Source: Phanerodontia chrysosporium
Lineage: Eukaryota; Basidiomycota; Agaricomycetes; Polyporales; Phanerochaetaceae
Assembly: GCA_001910725.1 (NCBI GenBank)
Contig: MJGA01000001.1
Coordinates: 2,046,001-2,110,000, forward strand
Length of the DNA stretch: 64,000 nucleotides
Reading direction: 5' to 3'
Shown one piece after another: positions 4,536 through 12,040 of this stretch (the first letter of the stretch is position 1; every line of letters begins with the position of its first letter). A program made the position numbers and the translations under genes. The notes under the pieces are model-generated. The model made no database searches, was not told the DNA's origin, and worked only from the letters and a program-made list of their open reading frames with translations.

Positions 4536-4544
4536 ATCATCCGC
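4536..4544. repeat. Left target-site duplication, 9 bp
   Basis: ATCATCCGC directly precedes the left inverted repeat. The same nine bases directly follow the right inverted repeat at 10613-10621. A perfect 9-bp direct repeat at both outer borders is the footprint expected from insertion of a cut-and-paste DNA transposon. Confidence 0.85.
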
Positions 4545-4673
4545 TAGTCTCGCCAGCCAGACCTTCCGGAGCTGATCTCCGATCCGGATGCGGAATACCT
4601 GACGGTGCATCCGAGCTCCAGAAGGTCTGGTGGCTTTACCCCCGTGACTCCTACATCGAGTCACAAGTGTGAC
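4545..4673 (+). repeat. Left terminal inverted repeat
   Basis: Pairs with 10485-10612 in inverted orientation. The outermost 8 bases are identical (TAGTCTCG). The middle is diverged, with scattered matches such as CCAGCC. The inner block 4605-4673 is strongly conserved: from GTCTGGTGGC (4625) to GTGAC (4673) about 44 of 48 aligned bases agree with one gap. It includes a GTGACTC/GAGTCAC hairpin at 4644-4664. Confidence 0.85.
4644..4664. promoter_or_regulatory. Palindromic site in the left TIR
   Basis: GTGACTC, a 7-base spacer, then GAGTCAC: a perfect 7-bp-arm inverted repeat. The same site with the same spacer (read on the other strand) lies at 10494-10514 in the right TIR. As the best conserved part of both ends, it is a candidate binding site for the element's own protein. 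The TGACTC core also resembles a Gcn4/AP-1 half site. Function is inferred. Confidence 0.5.
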
Positions 4674-4742
4674 AAAATTGCGTGATCAGTCTGCGTGCTC
4701 CTGCCCGTTTTGCTCGCACAGACGCCACCACGCAGACACCAC

Positions 4743-7580
4743 ATGGACGAATTTGGCATGGACGAAGAATGGTTCGGCTCGGACGAGGAAGAAGAACCCA
4801 TGGACGAGGGCTACGATAGCGACCGTCTTTCGGACATCTCCGACTGGGACGAAGATCCTGCTGCCCCTTCAGCTCCGCAGGACCCCATACAATTGAAGAA
4901 TACGCGGCGATTGTGGGCCAAGCTAAGGGGAGGCCCAACAGACTACCGCGCGAAGGTGCGCAAGGTCCTGTACATGATGGACGTCGAAGGAATAAATCTG
5001 CCCATGTTCCTTCACCTTGTGTGCTGGGGAGATGACGGCTGCATCAAAGACGAGAAAATTCGGTATGAACGGACCGCTCTCATGGTGAGCGAAGAGCTTC
5101 CCGGCATCTTATCTGCCATGCGCGAGCCTCCGCGCTCGAGCGAATCACGATCTCACGCACGGCGACCTGCGGGAGCAGCCAAGGCGCTCAACGACTTTGC
5201 CGTCGACACTGTCAGCAACCTCCTGGACGACGAGCTCGAGCAGAGCACCCGCCTCTTCCGCTCCCCCGCAGACGGTCTCTCTGAGGCCGAACTCAATGGC
5301 TTCTCCATACGCGACACGGCGAAGCAGCTCGCAGAGCCGTCAGGAGCGCCCACTCTCGTGCGCATCCTTCGAGCAGCCATGGACAGGCAGCGTAGACCGC
5401 GCAAGAGGAGGCGGCCTGGTGAGGAGCGGAAGACACGGAAGGACTTCGACGCGGTATGTTCGCAGTACTTTCATGTTGTTAGCCTCGTCTTATGCGCCTG
5501 ATCAGATTGTAGTTATGCTTGTTAATACCTTGCAATACACACGTTCCCACAATGCAAATGCGTGGACGAAGCCTCTCACTCTTTATCTCAAGTACAAGGG
5601 AGCGTCTGCAAAGGCTCTCGATTTCATGCACACGCTGGGGATTACCATGTCCCATAGCTGGTCAGTCCGTGCCTTCAGGAAGATATCTGCGCGGGCCCTC
5701 GAGCAGTTGCGCGAGATGGTTCGTGTACATCCCTGGCGCATCGGCCATGACAATCTCAACCTGCCCTTCGTCGCCTATTCCCAGAGGCTCAACAATCAGT
5801 CTCATTTCGATTCCGGCACCGTTGGGTCGATATTCATAAAACCGTCTGCACCGAGAGAGCCTCCGCTTTCTGCTATGGAGCTTCGGGAGGCTCAACGCGA
5901 AGGCCGCAAGCAACCGCTCACGGCCGTCGACCTTGCACGGCTGGACAGAGATGCGGCGCCCCGGCTACATGAGTGGAAGGTCTACTATGCCTTGCGCTAC
6001 CTGCTCGACAGCCCGGAGTTTGGACTAGACACGTACACACACCGGAAGGACCCCATTCTGCAGGCCCCGCCGTCACTCCGTCAACTACCACATGGTGCTG
6101 AACATGTCACCAAGCAATGGGTGCTCGAGACGTTGCATCTCGATGAGTCGACATACGAGGGCACGGATTCAATAATAAATTCGTATCTGCACATGCTCGA
6201 TCTTGACTCGGACGAAGATCTGCGGGCTACAAGCCTGGACCAGGTGCTCGTATGGATTGGCGACCAACTAACGGTTGAGCGCATGCGTGGACTCGCCAAC
6301 TATCGATGCGAGGACCGCAACAGCTTCGAGCGACTTGACTGGATTTTGACGTCTTTCGGCTGGTTTCACCTGCTCATGACGTACGCGAATTCACTACACA
6401 AGCAATACTTTGGCACCACCTCCGGCCGTGGCCTCCGGCACGCGTTTGCGCTTTTACATCGTCGCGGACTCCAGTCAGCGCAGATCAAAGGCACCTTCTA
6501 CCACCACCTTCATGAAGGCATCGAACATGTCGCAGAAGCACGACTATTGACCGCCTGGCATGCACTTACGGGCGCCGTAAAGCTATCAGACTTGTGCGAC
6601 AAGACTCCTGCGGACCTGAAAGCGCTTGCCGAGGAGCTTGTATTGCGCTACGCGTCAAACGATGCCTTAGAAGACCACGATATGCTCCCTGATAACCAGC
6701 AAGACGGTTTACTACGTCAATCTATTATGTGGAACCGCGACATCCTGCCGTATCTCATGCTTAATGACGCTATCAAGCGCGGCGACGTGGGCATGATGGA
6801 GGGGCTACTTCCTCACATGTTCTTTCGCTTCTCTGGCTCCGGCAACAACAAGTATGCAGGAGAGATATTAGAACTTCTCCAAGGACTTCACCGTGAGTGG
6901 TCCCCATCTGTTAGGTATGTCAATTCATGGTTTATTGCGTGCATATACTTCCAAGTCACTTATTAATATTTTAAACAAGCGATTATGTCCGTCAGCACTG
7001 CTGGCTAGTTAACATGAAGGGTGGCGCCAGGGACTTCACCCCGTACGATCTCGCTATTGAGCATACAGTCAAAGACGTAAAAGTAACACTTCGACCGGGA
7101 GGGCCGTATGGCTCTTGGGAAGTTATGCAGCAGCGCAGCCCTGCTATCCCGACGCTTCGCACGCTGGGTGTACACATTGAAGCCGAATTTCCAACTGTCT
7201 CTCGTGGAGTCAAGCATAGCGCACCATCGAAGGATCAGGACGTCAAGCTGTTGCAACAACACTATGCATTATCGGGTATCTACGCAAACAAACAGCGCAT
7301 ACTCGAGTCAGACGACAACACTACTGATTATTTGATGAAAGGCTTCGATGACGGGGCCCGAAAAGTCCTTCCTGGGTGGGTTGAGAGGCGAAACGCATAC
7401 ATGCATGCATCACGACAGACCTGGAGTGACTACGCGAACGCATCGGCGGCAGGGGACTCGGAGCCGCAGTCAGAGCTTAGTGAAGTGGCGCCCGGATGTC
7501 GGAACAAGGGGATAGCGGTGGCAGCGGTGGAGGTGTCAACGGAGCCATGGCGGGATCTACATAGTTGTGAAGATCAGTAG
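4743..7580 (+). CDS. DUF6589-type protein, probable mobilisation protein of the element
   Basis: Exons 4743-5453, 5506-6914 and 6980-7580 join cleanly to 906 residues. The start MDEFGMDEEWFGS opens an acidic N-terminal region of about 50 residues; a basic RQRRPRKRRRPGEERK patch follows near residue 220. The remainder matches the Agaricomycete family I know as DUF6589, with landmarks HDNLN (D319), WIGDQLTVER (D490), ILTSFGWFHL, ELLQGLHREW and DLAIEHTVKD (E734). These three acidic residues sit in the most family-typical stretches and could form a D-D-E triad of an RNase-H-like transposase; that is inference. The last 100 bp overlap the helicase gene tail to tail. No function has been shown for this family that I know of; the position inside TIRs argues for a role in movement. 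Confidence 0.75.
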
Positions 7581-10389
7581 CAGCAACAATCGAAGTGGCA
7601 TGTGAATGACGGGGTGCAAGCGGTGAACGCGGACTCTGCGGAGCGACACCAGGGCCGGATAATCGAGTGTTCGATCGTGCAGTTGGCGGTAGGGGACACA
7701 GACCGCTAGCGATAGTGCCATGGTCCTTGTTGTATGGCCCCGCGTATGGTGGTGGTGTGCAGCGTGTCGGCATGAGGCAAGCAGCCTGTATGTTGTGAAG
7801 TGGACGTGCTCGTGTGGAGGTGCGCACCACAGGTTCCGGGACTGGCGGGAATAGACGTGGATCACTCCTGAACGAGGTTGCGGGTACTCCAGGCCCTACG
7901 AGAGCCTGCCAGGGTCGCATGAGAGTGTCTAAGATATAAATGAGCTCGAGTAAACGTCTAGACTAAGCATATTGCACTCACCTTCGGGACTGGCAGCGGC
8001 AACACGTCGAGGGCATTCTCGACCATGCGCATATGACGGCTGCCTCGGTAGTCCATCTGTACAGCATCTGGGGGCACGGCAGCTGGGAGCCTCCGCTTCT
8101 CTATGGCCCCCTTTGCCTTCTTCTCGCGAACTGCCTGCCGCTGTGCCTCGGCCGCCTTCTTCCTCTCCTCGGTGACCTGCCGCTTGGCAATGCGCCGTGC
8201 CTCCAGCTCGCGTCTTCTGTCCTCTGCCTGACGCCGCTTCTCCTCCACTGCCTCCTCTCTGGCTCGCTTCTGAGCCTCGACAGCGTCCTTGCGGCGTTGT
8301 TCGTGCGCAGTATCGAGAGCTGTGACAAGCTCGATGACCTCGCCACCATGTTCGTCCAAGAAGATCCAGGGTGGCTTGAGAACTCTGCGTAAGCCCTCGA
8401 TTGACTTGCAGCCTCGGCGATGGCTTGCAATCGTTTGTACGGCACGGTCAGGGAGCAGGTTCATTGCTGAGAGGGAGCTAAAGGGGTACAGACGTCGTCG
8501 AGCGGTTACCCGCCACTTGCGGAGGCCCTCCTGCACATCTTTGAGGTGCTGATTGGTTCGCCTTTTAGGGGACAGAGGAGGGAGGCTAGGGTTGGTGTTC
8601 TCGACATCAGAGTGGTTGGAATGAGAGTCAGAAGGGCTGTCTTGTGCGTCCGGCTCGGCGTCACTCGAGGCAGCGTCACTGGTGTCACTGGAAGTTGCTG
8701 ACTCGATATCGGATGGAAAATCGACAGAGCTCGGGGAGGTGCTCTGTTGTGGCATTGCTGCTTGCTGGGCAGCCTGTGAGCAATTGTCGCAGCACTCGTG
8801 GGGTCGGAGAGCTGGAGGTCGAAGTCAGAAGGTGATCCCATATGAAACCAGAGTCTTACCGTGTGAACGAGGTGGATTATTGAAATGGGCGTCCAGAACC
8901 ACGCGTCTGCACCCATTTGTCTCGAGCCACTCCCTTACACTTTCATCGACCATCTTCTTGAAATCTTGGCCGTCTTCAGGCTCTGCTGGCGTGGCCTGTT
9001 TGTCTGCTCCCCTCTTCCTCTTTCCAGGCTTCCTAGCAGCGCCCTTCTGGGTGACCGAGATCTCAACCAACATCACCGCACGGGCGCGCTTTCTCTGGGA
9101 GCGTCCAGCCCGTCCGGCTCGCTGAACCCAAACGGTGAGTGAACTAGCCACTCCAAACTGAACAACGAGCTCTATGTCTGAGACATCCATTCCCTAGTAC
9201 ACCAATGGTAAGCAAAACGCACTCCAGCTACCGGGAATCACTCACCAATGCCGCCGCCTCAGTCGCGACAAGTATTCGGACTCTGCCTCTGGCAAACTCG
9301 TCCCAAACCTCGTGCTTCGAGCGTGGAGACCGAAGGGCATGGAATATACCAATGTGAGTCGCAAGAGCCGGCCCAACGAGCGTACGCAGCCGGCGAGCCA
9401 CCGCATGTGTATCGGCACGTTTATTGACAAATATTATTGCTCGCGGCAGGTCTTCTCTCGTAGCATGGCCTGCCTTCTGCGTCGCCGCGTCCACAACAAA
9501 GTCAATCGCAGCCCAGTCCTCTGCCGACTTCATATACCGCACTTCTTGGTAGAGATTTTGACGGTCGTTCCCCAGATTGAGGCAGAAGGACTTTTCCGTG
9601 CGGATTCGAAGCTTCCTCTTGACTTCGCTAAGTGCGGACGGTGTTAATGTTGCAGATGCGGCCAATACTGGGATTCCAAGCTCAGCAAATACATGTAGGT
9701 TTTCGAGTCTGCTGTACTCGGGTCGGAACTCCCCACCCCACTCGCAGATCATGTGCGCCTCGTCGACAACGAGAAGCCCGACCCTTTGTACAAATCTTGG
9801 GGTTGTAAGGAGTCTACGCAGCCTCTTGTTGTGTGCGAGCATCTCGGGCGAAGTCAAGATCACTTGGACCTTGAAGTCCTCGATTTCCTGTCAGAGCATT
9901 GAGTCCTGTACAATGTGTGCTACTGAGTGAATGACGCACCTTGTGAAGCGCATCATTGTACGTCTCGCTGTTGACCGCACGAGCGCTGAGCCCCATTGCC
10001 GTGAAACGCGCAACCTGTCATTCATTAAGCTGAGTTCCGCACACAATTTCTGGCACTCTTACTTGGTCCCTCTCGAGGGCATTCAAGGGAGAGACGATGA
10101 TCACAATTTTATTTGTAATGAACGCCGGCATCACAAAAGGAAGTGTTTTTCCAAACCCTGTCCCTGCAATAACTACCCCGTCGAGCCCCAGGAGCAACGC
10201 CTCCGCCACATCTAGCTGCCAAACATACGGCAGCTTCTCTTGGCACCTGCTCTTGAACTCGGCGGTCAGTTGCGCTCGCACAACCTTAGAGTTATAGTTG
10301 CGCTCTTCCCGGGCGTTTTCTCGGGCCGCCTCGAGCTTCGCATAGAATTCCGGGTGAGTCGTTGGACTAGGCGGCGGCGGGGTTGCCAT
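7477..10389 (-). CDS. RecQ-like DEAH-box DNA helicase carried by the mobile element
   Basis: Six exons (10389-10063, 10014-9940, 9887-9246, 9193-8860, 8811-7982, 7905-7477) give 878 residues in one frame. An ATP-dependent SF2 helicase: Walker A GTGFGKT (about 76-82), box VVDEAHMICEW (DEAH about 176-179), SATLT, IIFVNKRAD, ILVATEAAALGMDV and QRAGRAGR. A Zn-binding-type CCDNC follows, with the GCRR region before it supplying other possible ligands. The C-terminal half has an Asp/Ser-rich linker, an LKDVQEGLRKWRVT...LLPD segment typical of fungal RecQ-like proteins, a long charged helix (KRAREEAVEEKRRQ), and a Pro-rich tail. The DEAH box and the expanded C-terminus set it apart from cellular RecQ (Sgs1/BLM), so I read it as a transposon-borne paralogue. 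Confidence 0.85.
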
Positions 10390-10484
10390 AGAAGGTCGCC
10401 AGAGAGCTATAGATGGAAGAACTGGGATGCGCAGGTGGACGAGCGTGGAATGATGGTGCAGAACGCGCAAAAAGAAGTCGCATC

Positions 10485-10612
10485 GTCACGCGTGTGACTC
10501 GATGTAGGAGTCACGGGGCAAAGCCACCAGACGTTCAGGAGCGTCGGATCGCCGAAGGCAACTGATCCGAAGGCCGCAGGCCCGCTCAACAACGGCTGGC
10601 GCCGCGAGACTA
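10485..10612 (-). repeat. Right terminal inverted repeat
   Basis: Inverted partner of 4545-4673 (see there). Read inward from 10612 it starts TAGTCTCG and ends at GTGAC. The conserved inner block contains GTCTGGTGGC and the hairpin at 10494-10514. It lies directly upstream of the helicase ATG (10389) and may hold that gene's promoter. Confidence 0.85.
10494..10514. promoter_or_regulatory. Palindromic site in the right TIR
   Basis: GTGACTC, a 7-base spacer, GAGTCAC, the same inverted repeat as at 4644-4664. Conservation at both ends while the outer TIR has diverged suggests selection for protein binding. Confidence 0.5.
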
Positions 10613-10621
10613 ATCATCCGC
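10613..10621. repeat. Right target-site duplication, 9 bp
   Basis: ATCATCCGC immediately after the terminal CGAGACTA, identical to 4536-4544. Confidence 0.85.
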
Positions 10622-10712: not shown

Positions 10713-12040
10713 ATGGCAGCTCGGAGGTTGCTTGTAGACGTCCATACCCACGTCTACCTCCCGCGATACGCCGCGTTCCTCCGCTCGCGCACGAGCGTAC
10801 CACGCATCTTCACGCGGACCAGCGATGCTGGGGAGCAAGAGGAACGGCTGTTGATCCTAGGCAATGAGCCCAGCGGGGGAAGGCCCGTCGGTGCGCAGGT
10901 ACAAGGCCAGCATCGCTCTTCACTGCACATGATACTGAACGCACCGCCAGTACTGGGACAGAGACGAGAAGCTGAAGTTTATGGATAAGCATGGGATTGA
11001 CGTCTCTGTTGTTAGGTGTGTTCTATGGGCCGTATGGCAAAGATATAGCTCATCTTTTGTACCTCCAGCTCGGCGAATCCGTGGTTGGACTTCCTTCCTG
11101 CGTCCACGGCCCACCAGCTCGCGGGAGAGCTGAACGAGGACCTCGAAGCGTACTGCGCAACGTCCCCGTCCCTACAGAATGACCCGCTGAAGCGGCTATA
11201 CGGATTTGGTCTCCTGCCGCTGGTGCCCGAGGTGACGGTCCAGTCCCTCCTCGACACAGTCAAGCAGATCTCCAGCCTGCCGCACCTGAAGGGCATCATC
11301 ATGGGCACGCGCGGAGTCGGCAAAGGCCTGGACGACGACGCACTGGAGCCCGTGTGGGAGGCGATCGCCCAGGCAGGGCTCGTGGTGTTCCTGCACCCCC
11401 ACTACGGCGTCGACGGCAAGGCCTGGGGAGAGAAGGAGAACGGACACGTCCTGCCGCTCGCACTCGGCTTCCCGTTCGAGACCACCATTGTGAGTCTGCA
11501 TCTCCCGCTAGTATGGACGTGATCTAGAGCACATCTCCGCAGGCCACAACGCGCCTGATTCTCTCTGGGGTGTTCGACCGCCACCCAGACCTGCGCCTTC
11601 TGCTCGCACATTCGGGCGGAGCACTCCCACAGCTGTCGTCCCGCCTCGCGTCATGCATCGACCACGATCCTGCCGTCGCGTTGCGCCTCAAGCACGACGC
11701 GCGATACTATCTCGGGAAGTTGTACTTTGATGCTGTCGCGTACGGCTCAGAAGAGCTCGGCTTTGTGAGCGACGTCATCGGCCGTGCCGACGCGTTCTCC
11801 GCGCGCCCTTCGTCGGCGAGTGCGTCAAAGACGGTTGGCTCCGAGAAACGCAAGCTCGGCAGCGCTAGAATGCTCTTTGGCACCGACCATCCATTCTTCC
11901 CGCCCCTCTCAGAGACGGAGAAATGGAAGAGCGTTGTCGAGAACCTGGAGGCCATCGACGGTGTAGAAGAATGGACTGAGGTTGAGAAGAACGGCGTGCG
12001 TGGTGGCAATGCGCTAAAACTGTTCGGGCTGTCGTTGTGA
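10713..12040 (+). CDS. Amidohydrolase of the ACMSD family (aminocarboxymuconate-semialdehyde decarboxylase-like)
   Basis: Exons 10713-10898, 10951-11015, 11069-11489 and 11543-12040 give 389 residues. Metal-dependent TIM-barrel hydrolase signature: VDVHTHVYLP at the start (HxH metal ligands), YWDRDEKLKFMDKHGIDVSVVS, LVVFLHPHYG, LLLAHSGGALP and GTDHPFFPP near the end (metal-binding Asp), then GGNALKLFGL, which aligns with the C-terminus of human ACMSD. ACMSD removes CO2 from 2-amino-3-carboxymuconate semialdehyde, diverting it from NAD synthesis. It faces the quinolinate phosphoribosyltransferase gene, which uses the other branch, and this supports the assignment. A gamma-resorcylate-type decarboxylase is the main alternative. 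The ATG is only 92 bp from the right end of the mobile element's duplication. Confidence 0.8.

Follow-up and report, generated by a model that had tools for sequence, protein, structure and literature searches.

Which kind of mobile element joins a gene of the DUF6589 family to one for a RecQ-like helicase, and why would such an element keep a helicase? This question is raised by a complete transposon of 6068 bp in Phanerodontia chrysosporium, located at 4545-10612 of the window, i.e., the stretch of 64,000 nucleotides analysed here (assembly GCA_001910725.1, contig MJGA01000001.1, positions 2,046,001 to 2,110,000 of the forward strand). We consider it highly probable that the element is an AcademH-type class II transposon that moved recently, with a DUF6589 DDE transposase, a RecQ-like helicase and 9-bp target site duplications (TSDs).

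The borders are set by the TSD and by the exact limits of the match to a second copy. The TSD ATCATCCGC stands at 4536-4544, where it was read out directly and recovered by copy comparison and by a scan for TSDs and terminal inverted repeats (TIRs), and again at 10613-10621 (copy comparison and scan). The outer TIRs identified by the scan are TAGTCTCG at 4545-4552 (plus strand, no mismatch in eight positions) and CGAGACTA at 10605-10612 (minus strand), and the termini read TAG..CTA. A longer inverted repeat found by inverted-repeat search is located inside the outer TIR, with arms at 4609-4673 (plus strand) and 10485-10549 (minus strand) that are 89% identical. The scan looked for 9-bp repeats next to 8-bp TIRs, allowing up to two mismatches, and within the initial 15 kb of the window the element's pair was its sole match. 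When another 9.9-kb locus was shuffled 20 times, the mean was 0.1 matches, while unshuffled loci also yielded a few weak matches with one or two mismatches.

A whole-element search of the genome (assembly G000, 39.0 Mb in 145 contigs) returned a single other full copy, G000:C113:1202302-1208371, whose match to the window copy ends exactly at the element ends. The two copies differ by four 1-nt indels and no substitutions, and the C113 copy is flanked by a different 9-bp TSD, ATGGGGAAG. Because this near-identical copy has its own duplication, the window element is a real, recently mobile transposon. The earlier note had placed the borders exactly here and proposed a search for copies with the same TIRs and other 9-bp duplications; both the borders and that expectation are borne out. 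One of the indels, at 7507, changes the end of the transposase frame, and those at 7985 and 8107 fall within the last helicase exon, such that the frames of the two copies differ between these positions; it cannot be told whether the four indels are real or assembly errors. No empty site was found within the same assembly, in which each flank of the window copy matches once, at the window itself. The small number of differences could also be read as a segmental duplication or an assembly artefact, in which DUF6589 and the helicase would be plain host genes. We reject this reading as extremely improbable, as the limits of homology coincide with the TIRs and the two copies are flanked by different 9-bp TSDs, a pattern likewise seen in a second pair of elements at C124 and C135.

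These two belong to six further insertions with similar ends, from three other lineages, found in the same genome. The C124 (7679 bp, TSD GGGAAGAAC) and C135 elements (7691 bp, TSD ATTTTGTGG) are 99.2% alike, and both run TAGGCTCG...CGAGACTA. The C57 element (L022:640-6834) has the ends CAGACTCC...GGAGTCTG and the TSD TGCACAGCC, the C59 element the ends TAGTCTTA...GGAGACTA and the TSD GGCCGTTGA. In the C2 element (940950-955467) the flanking repeats AACGAACGC and AACGAACGA agree in eight of nine bases. Overall, the TSD is a perfect 9 bp in seven of eight insertions (window, C113, C124, C135, C83, C57 and C59), and both genes are present in all except the copy at C83. The latter (G000:C83:120330-122788, L025) is a 2459-bp internally deleted member of the C2-like family with the perfect 9-bp TSD CCTTGCCGC, and is likely a non-autonomous derivative. 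The right end GGAGTCTG is common to C60, C64 and C69, after which their flanks differ; the TIR/TSD scan found no TSD for these three. Nor did it find a unit with both genes in the stretches examined at L021, L023, L024, L026-L030 and L032, where weak matches in L021, L027 and L032 were not accepted; outside the eight insertions, the loci examined yielded no TSD.

The first of the two genes probably encodes the transposase. Its predicted exons lie on the plus strand at 4743-5453 (splice sites and frame), 5506-6914 (splice sites, Pfam and alignment) and 6980-7580 (splice sites, Pfam and structure model). The second contains most of DUF6589 (Pfam PF20231, E 4.3e-93 in this frame) with the proposed residues D314 and D485, the third the end of the domain, followed by a tail modelled at low confidence. 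DUF6589 is the sole Pfam match of the transposase frames (E up to 1) and of P0001 (E up to 0.01), an 896-amino-acid database protein that is 100% identical over the searched region. The C-terminus of the window protein, in a frame of 906 amino acids, is unlike that of P0001 downstream of the indel at 7507. The predicted structure has an RNase H-like DDE fold with Hermes, P element, Tn5 and RAG1 as best matches, and D314, D485 and E685 are conserved in an alignment of 60 homologues (A1). Fold and conservation thus point to a probable transposase with an RNase H-like core, a helical insertion and the proposed triad D314-D485-E685. In three of the 60 homologues N replaces D at position 314. The hAT (Hermes), P element and RAG1 families are the best solved-structure matches to the predicted fold, yet the protein has no Pfam match to any of them; they are not known to have a RecQ partner, and their TSDs are of other lengths. 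A profile search named no XPG-fused or animal relatives of DUF6589 among its 39 matches, for which only the top word-sharing candidates were scored. The Ganoderma boninense DUF6589 protein P0119 is labelled 'Transcriptional regulator containing an aminotransferase domain', likely a misannotation.

The partner gene is, as judged from its sequence, a DEAH-type RecQ-family helicase on the minus strand. Its five predicted exons lie at 10063-10389 (Walker A GTGFGKT), 9940-10014, 9246-9887 (DEAH box and SAT), 8860-9193 (motif VI and the first RecQ zinc cysteine) and 7956-8811 (remaining zinc motif and a charged C-terminal tail, with an uncertain 3' end). All were delimited by splice prediction, together with Pfam matches for exons 1, 3 and 4 and PDB matches for exons 1 and 4; the structures matched are WRN (1.9e-33), RECQ1 (3e-32), RecQ (4e-29) and BLM (6.4e-27). 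Because DUF6589 is on the plus and the helicase on the minus strand, the genes of the window element converge, and the convergent DUF6589 and RecQ-like pair described in the earlier note agrees with the Pfam and PDB matches. XPG, the nuclease of AcademX (compared below), was absent from a Pfam scan of seven frames covering all exons but helicase exon 2. To the right of the element, an amidohydrolase-like open reading frame (11049-11522) matches Amidohydro_2 below the cut-off (E 0.0021). A report on subtelomeric RecQ (PMC7473861) does not alter the present reading.

Is this combination of genes a property of the single insertion or of a transposon type? Matches in the genome were reduced by hand to 17 loci for DUF6589 and 25 for the helicase; both searches scored the best candidates only, and the association counts are accordingly lower bounds. 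At least 11 of the 17 DUF6589 loci have a helicase match no more than 5 kb away, at least 12 have one within 10 kb and at least 14 within 11 kb, the loci without one being C73, C2:415k and the deletion copy at C83. Random placement gave on average 0.26 loci with a helicase within 12 kb, and a maximum of 5 in 20,000 trials. Among the 14 pairs within 11 kb (strands determined by eye), 11 are convergent and three divergent (C2, C124 and C135); convergent order is therefore common and not obligatory.

The association extends to other species. A search for DUF6589 proteins returned 175 matches and one for the helicase 247, of which the best 120 each were listed; the named DUF6589 proteins come from genera that we take to be Agaricomycetes. 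Of the 120 DUF6589 proteins listed, at least 35 (counted by eye) have a listed helicase on their contig, the other 85 being without a partner among the matches listed. A shared contig was deduced from organism and equal contig size, which on megabase contigs does not imply adjacency; seven of the 35 contigs are shorter than 100 kb, the shortest 5.3 and 6.3 kb. In Trametes cubensis (g5810/g5811), Agrocybe chaxingu (g10340/g10341), Pleurotus djamor (g13520/g13521) and Paxillus involutus (12088/12087), the two genes are numbered consecutively. Over 32 unambiguous pairs (31 from the listed DUF6589 proteins, plus P0121 from the profile search) and the window, leaving out the ambiguous P0010, P0014, P0029 and P0038, transposase and helicase distances correlate with r 0.888, a value reached in none of 2000 permutations. 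Since species history alone could yield such a correlation, partners were also swapped within species only: the true pairing ranks second of 144 (median 0.70), one swap being higher by less than 0.001. Because the correlation held against these swaps, the protein sequences indicate that the two genes have travelled together. We interpret the recurrence of the pair inside TIRs with 9-bp TSDs, its proximity and its co-divergence as agreeing with the earlier suggestion of a single transposon type with a dedicated helicase as accessory, the helicase looking like a fixed partner; the expected association of the genes likewise held within this genome, with convergence common but not obligatory.

This pattern also bears on the possibility of a Mutator-like element (MULE) that captured a host RecQ gene. 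MULEs typically have TSDs near 9 bp, in keeping with those found here. A MULE transposase domain is absent from the Pfam matches of the transposase frames and P0001, and, since helicase and transposase have diverged together across many species, the helicase is not a recent capture. We reject a MuDR/MULE affiliation as very unlikely.

The ends of the elements are frequently prone to hairpin formation. In the window, a palindrome at 4557-4630 on the plus strand (arms 4557-4573 and 4614-4630), detected by inverted repeat and fold z score, could form a terminal hairpin; as single-stranded DNA the left end folds with z -6.5 (-4.9 in a second run) and the right end with z -4.3. Over the 16 ends of the eight insertions, which include related copies and are hence not independent, z is below -3 in nine; among 300 background windows, 7.3% fall below this value and 2.7% below -4, the lowest being at -9.8. 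Seven insertions have at least one end below -3.8. The ends not reaching -3 are the left ends of C124, C135, C2, C83 and C59 and the right ends of C2 (-2.64) and the window (-2.80 in that run); at 40 shuffles z is noisy, the near-identical right ends of window and C113 giving -2.80 and -3.93. Stem length failed to separate ends from background, of which 21% of the 300 windows reached 12 pairs, so that z was the one measure to do so, and an ungapped palindrome score clearly exceeded 10 shuffles for some ends only. The C57 element has about 142 bp identical at both ends (by eye), which contain a palindrome at about positions 10-117, and the z scores of its ends are -7.7 and -6.8.

For catalysis and mobility we infer a cut-and-paste route, in which the DUF6589 transposase would bind the terminal repeats, excise the element and reinsert it at target cuts with a 9-bp stagger. 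The helicase would be a stable accessory whose task may be to unwind or resolve DNA, either where the ends tend to form hairpins or during gap repair. More tentatively, and with considerable doubt on our part, the end palindromes might block or regulate transposition by forming hairpins, which the element's own BLM/WRN-like RecQ, long tied to the transposase in mushrooms, would unwind. If true, DDE transposition would here depend on a dedicated helicase as an obligatory part of the machinery, with a large 'unknown' family, DUF6589, as the transposase. Our reading gives a likely catalytic identity to a 'function unknown' family of hypothetical proteins in many mushroom genomes, and the element shows that some RecQ-like genes in these genomes are transposon cargo. 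With two nearly identical copies, and open frames in the one in the window, it offers a practical start for asking why such a DDE transposon has retained its helicase.

The earlier note was aware of no DNA transposon in the literature that combines these two genes. This does not hold, as AcademH (PMC10045372), KolobokH (PMC9587614) and fungal Academ with a recQ domain (PMC6416283) have been published. KolobokH, known only from fungi, resembles the window element in pairing a DDE transposase with a RecQ helicase; it differs in the 4-bp TTAA TSD and the 5'-RR..YY-3' termini of Kolobok (PMC9587614). With 9-bp TSDs lacking TTAA and termini of TAG..CTA, an assignment to KolobokH is highly improbable, and we reject it. 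AcademX belongs to the same superfamily as AcademH and differs by a nuclease in place of the helicase and by TSDs of 3 or 4 bp (PMC10045372).

The comparison with AcademH (Kojima 2020) is based on its descriptions in citing papers. According to these, Academ is placed among the DDD/E superfamilies (PMC9587614) and occurs in Marasmius oreades (PMC8290104), AcademH has a helicase and TSDs of 9 or 10 bp (PMC10045372) and has DEAD/Helicase_C domains and a low copy number in Basidiomycota and other groups (PMC10799480), and fungal Academ copies bear DEAD/DEAH and recQ_fam domains and are annotated as host genes (PMC6416283). The window element shares the helicase, which Pfam and PDB matches assign to the RecQ type of fungal Academ, the TSD length, the fungal host and the low copy number; the DDE transposase is represented by a predicted fold and conserved residues. 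A DDE superfamily not yet described, which gained its RecQ helicase and 9-bp TSD independently and is AcademH-like without homology to Academ, would fit the fact that DUF6589 is unnamed in the literature searched and that Academ proteins were compared by description. We consider this unlikely, as the element agrees in TSD length, in the genes it encodes and in its low-copy occurrence in a fungus with the descriptions of AcademH and fungal Academ in citing papers. DUF6589 was absent from the literature searched, a collection without most subscription journals, and within these limits its link to a transposase may be unprinted. DUF6589, the end palindromes and the co-divergence are features of the window element without mention in the AcademH descriptions consulted, and both the hairpin palindromes inside many ends and the co-divergence of the two proteins are possibly new. 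The window element is thus most likely a good new example of an already described transposon type, AcademH, rather than a new kind.
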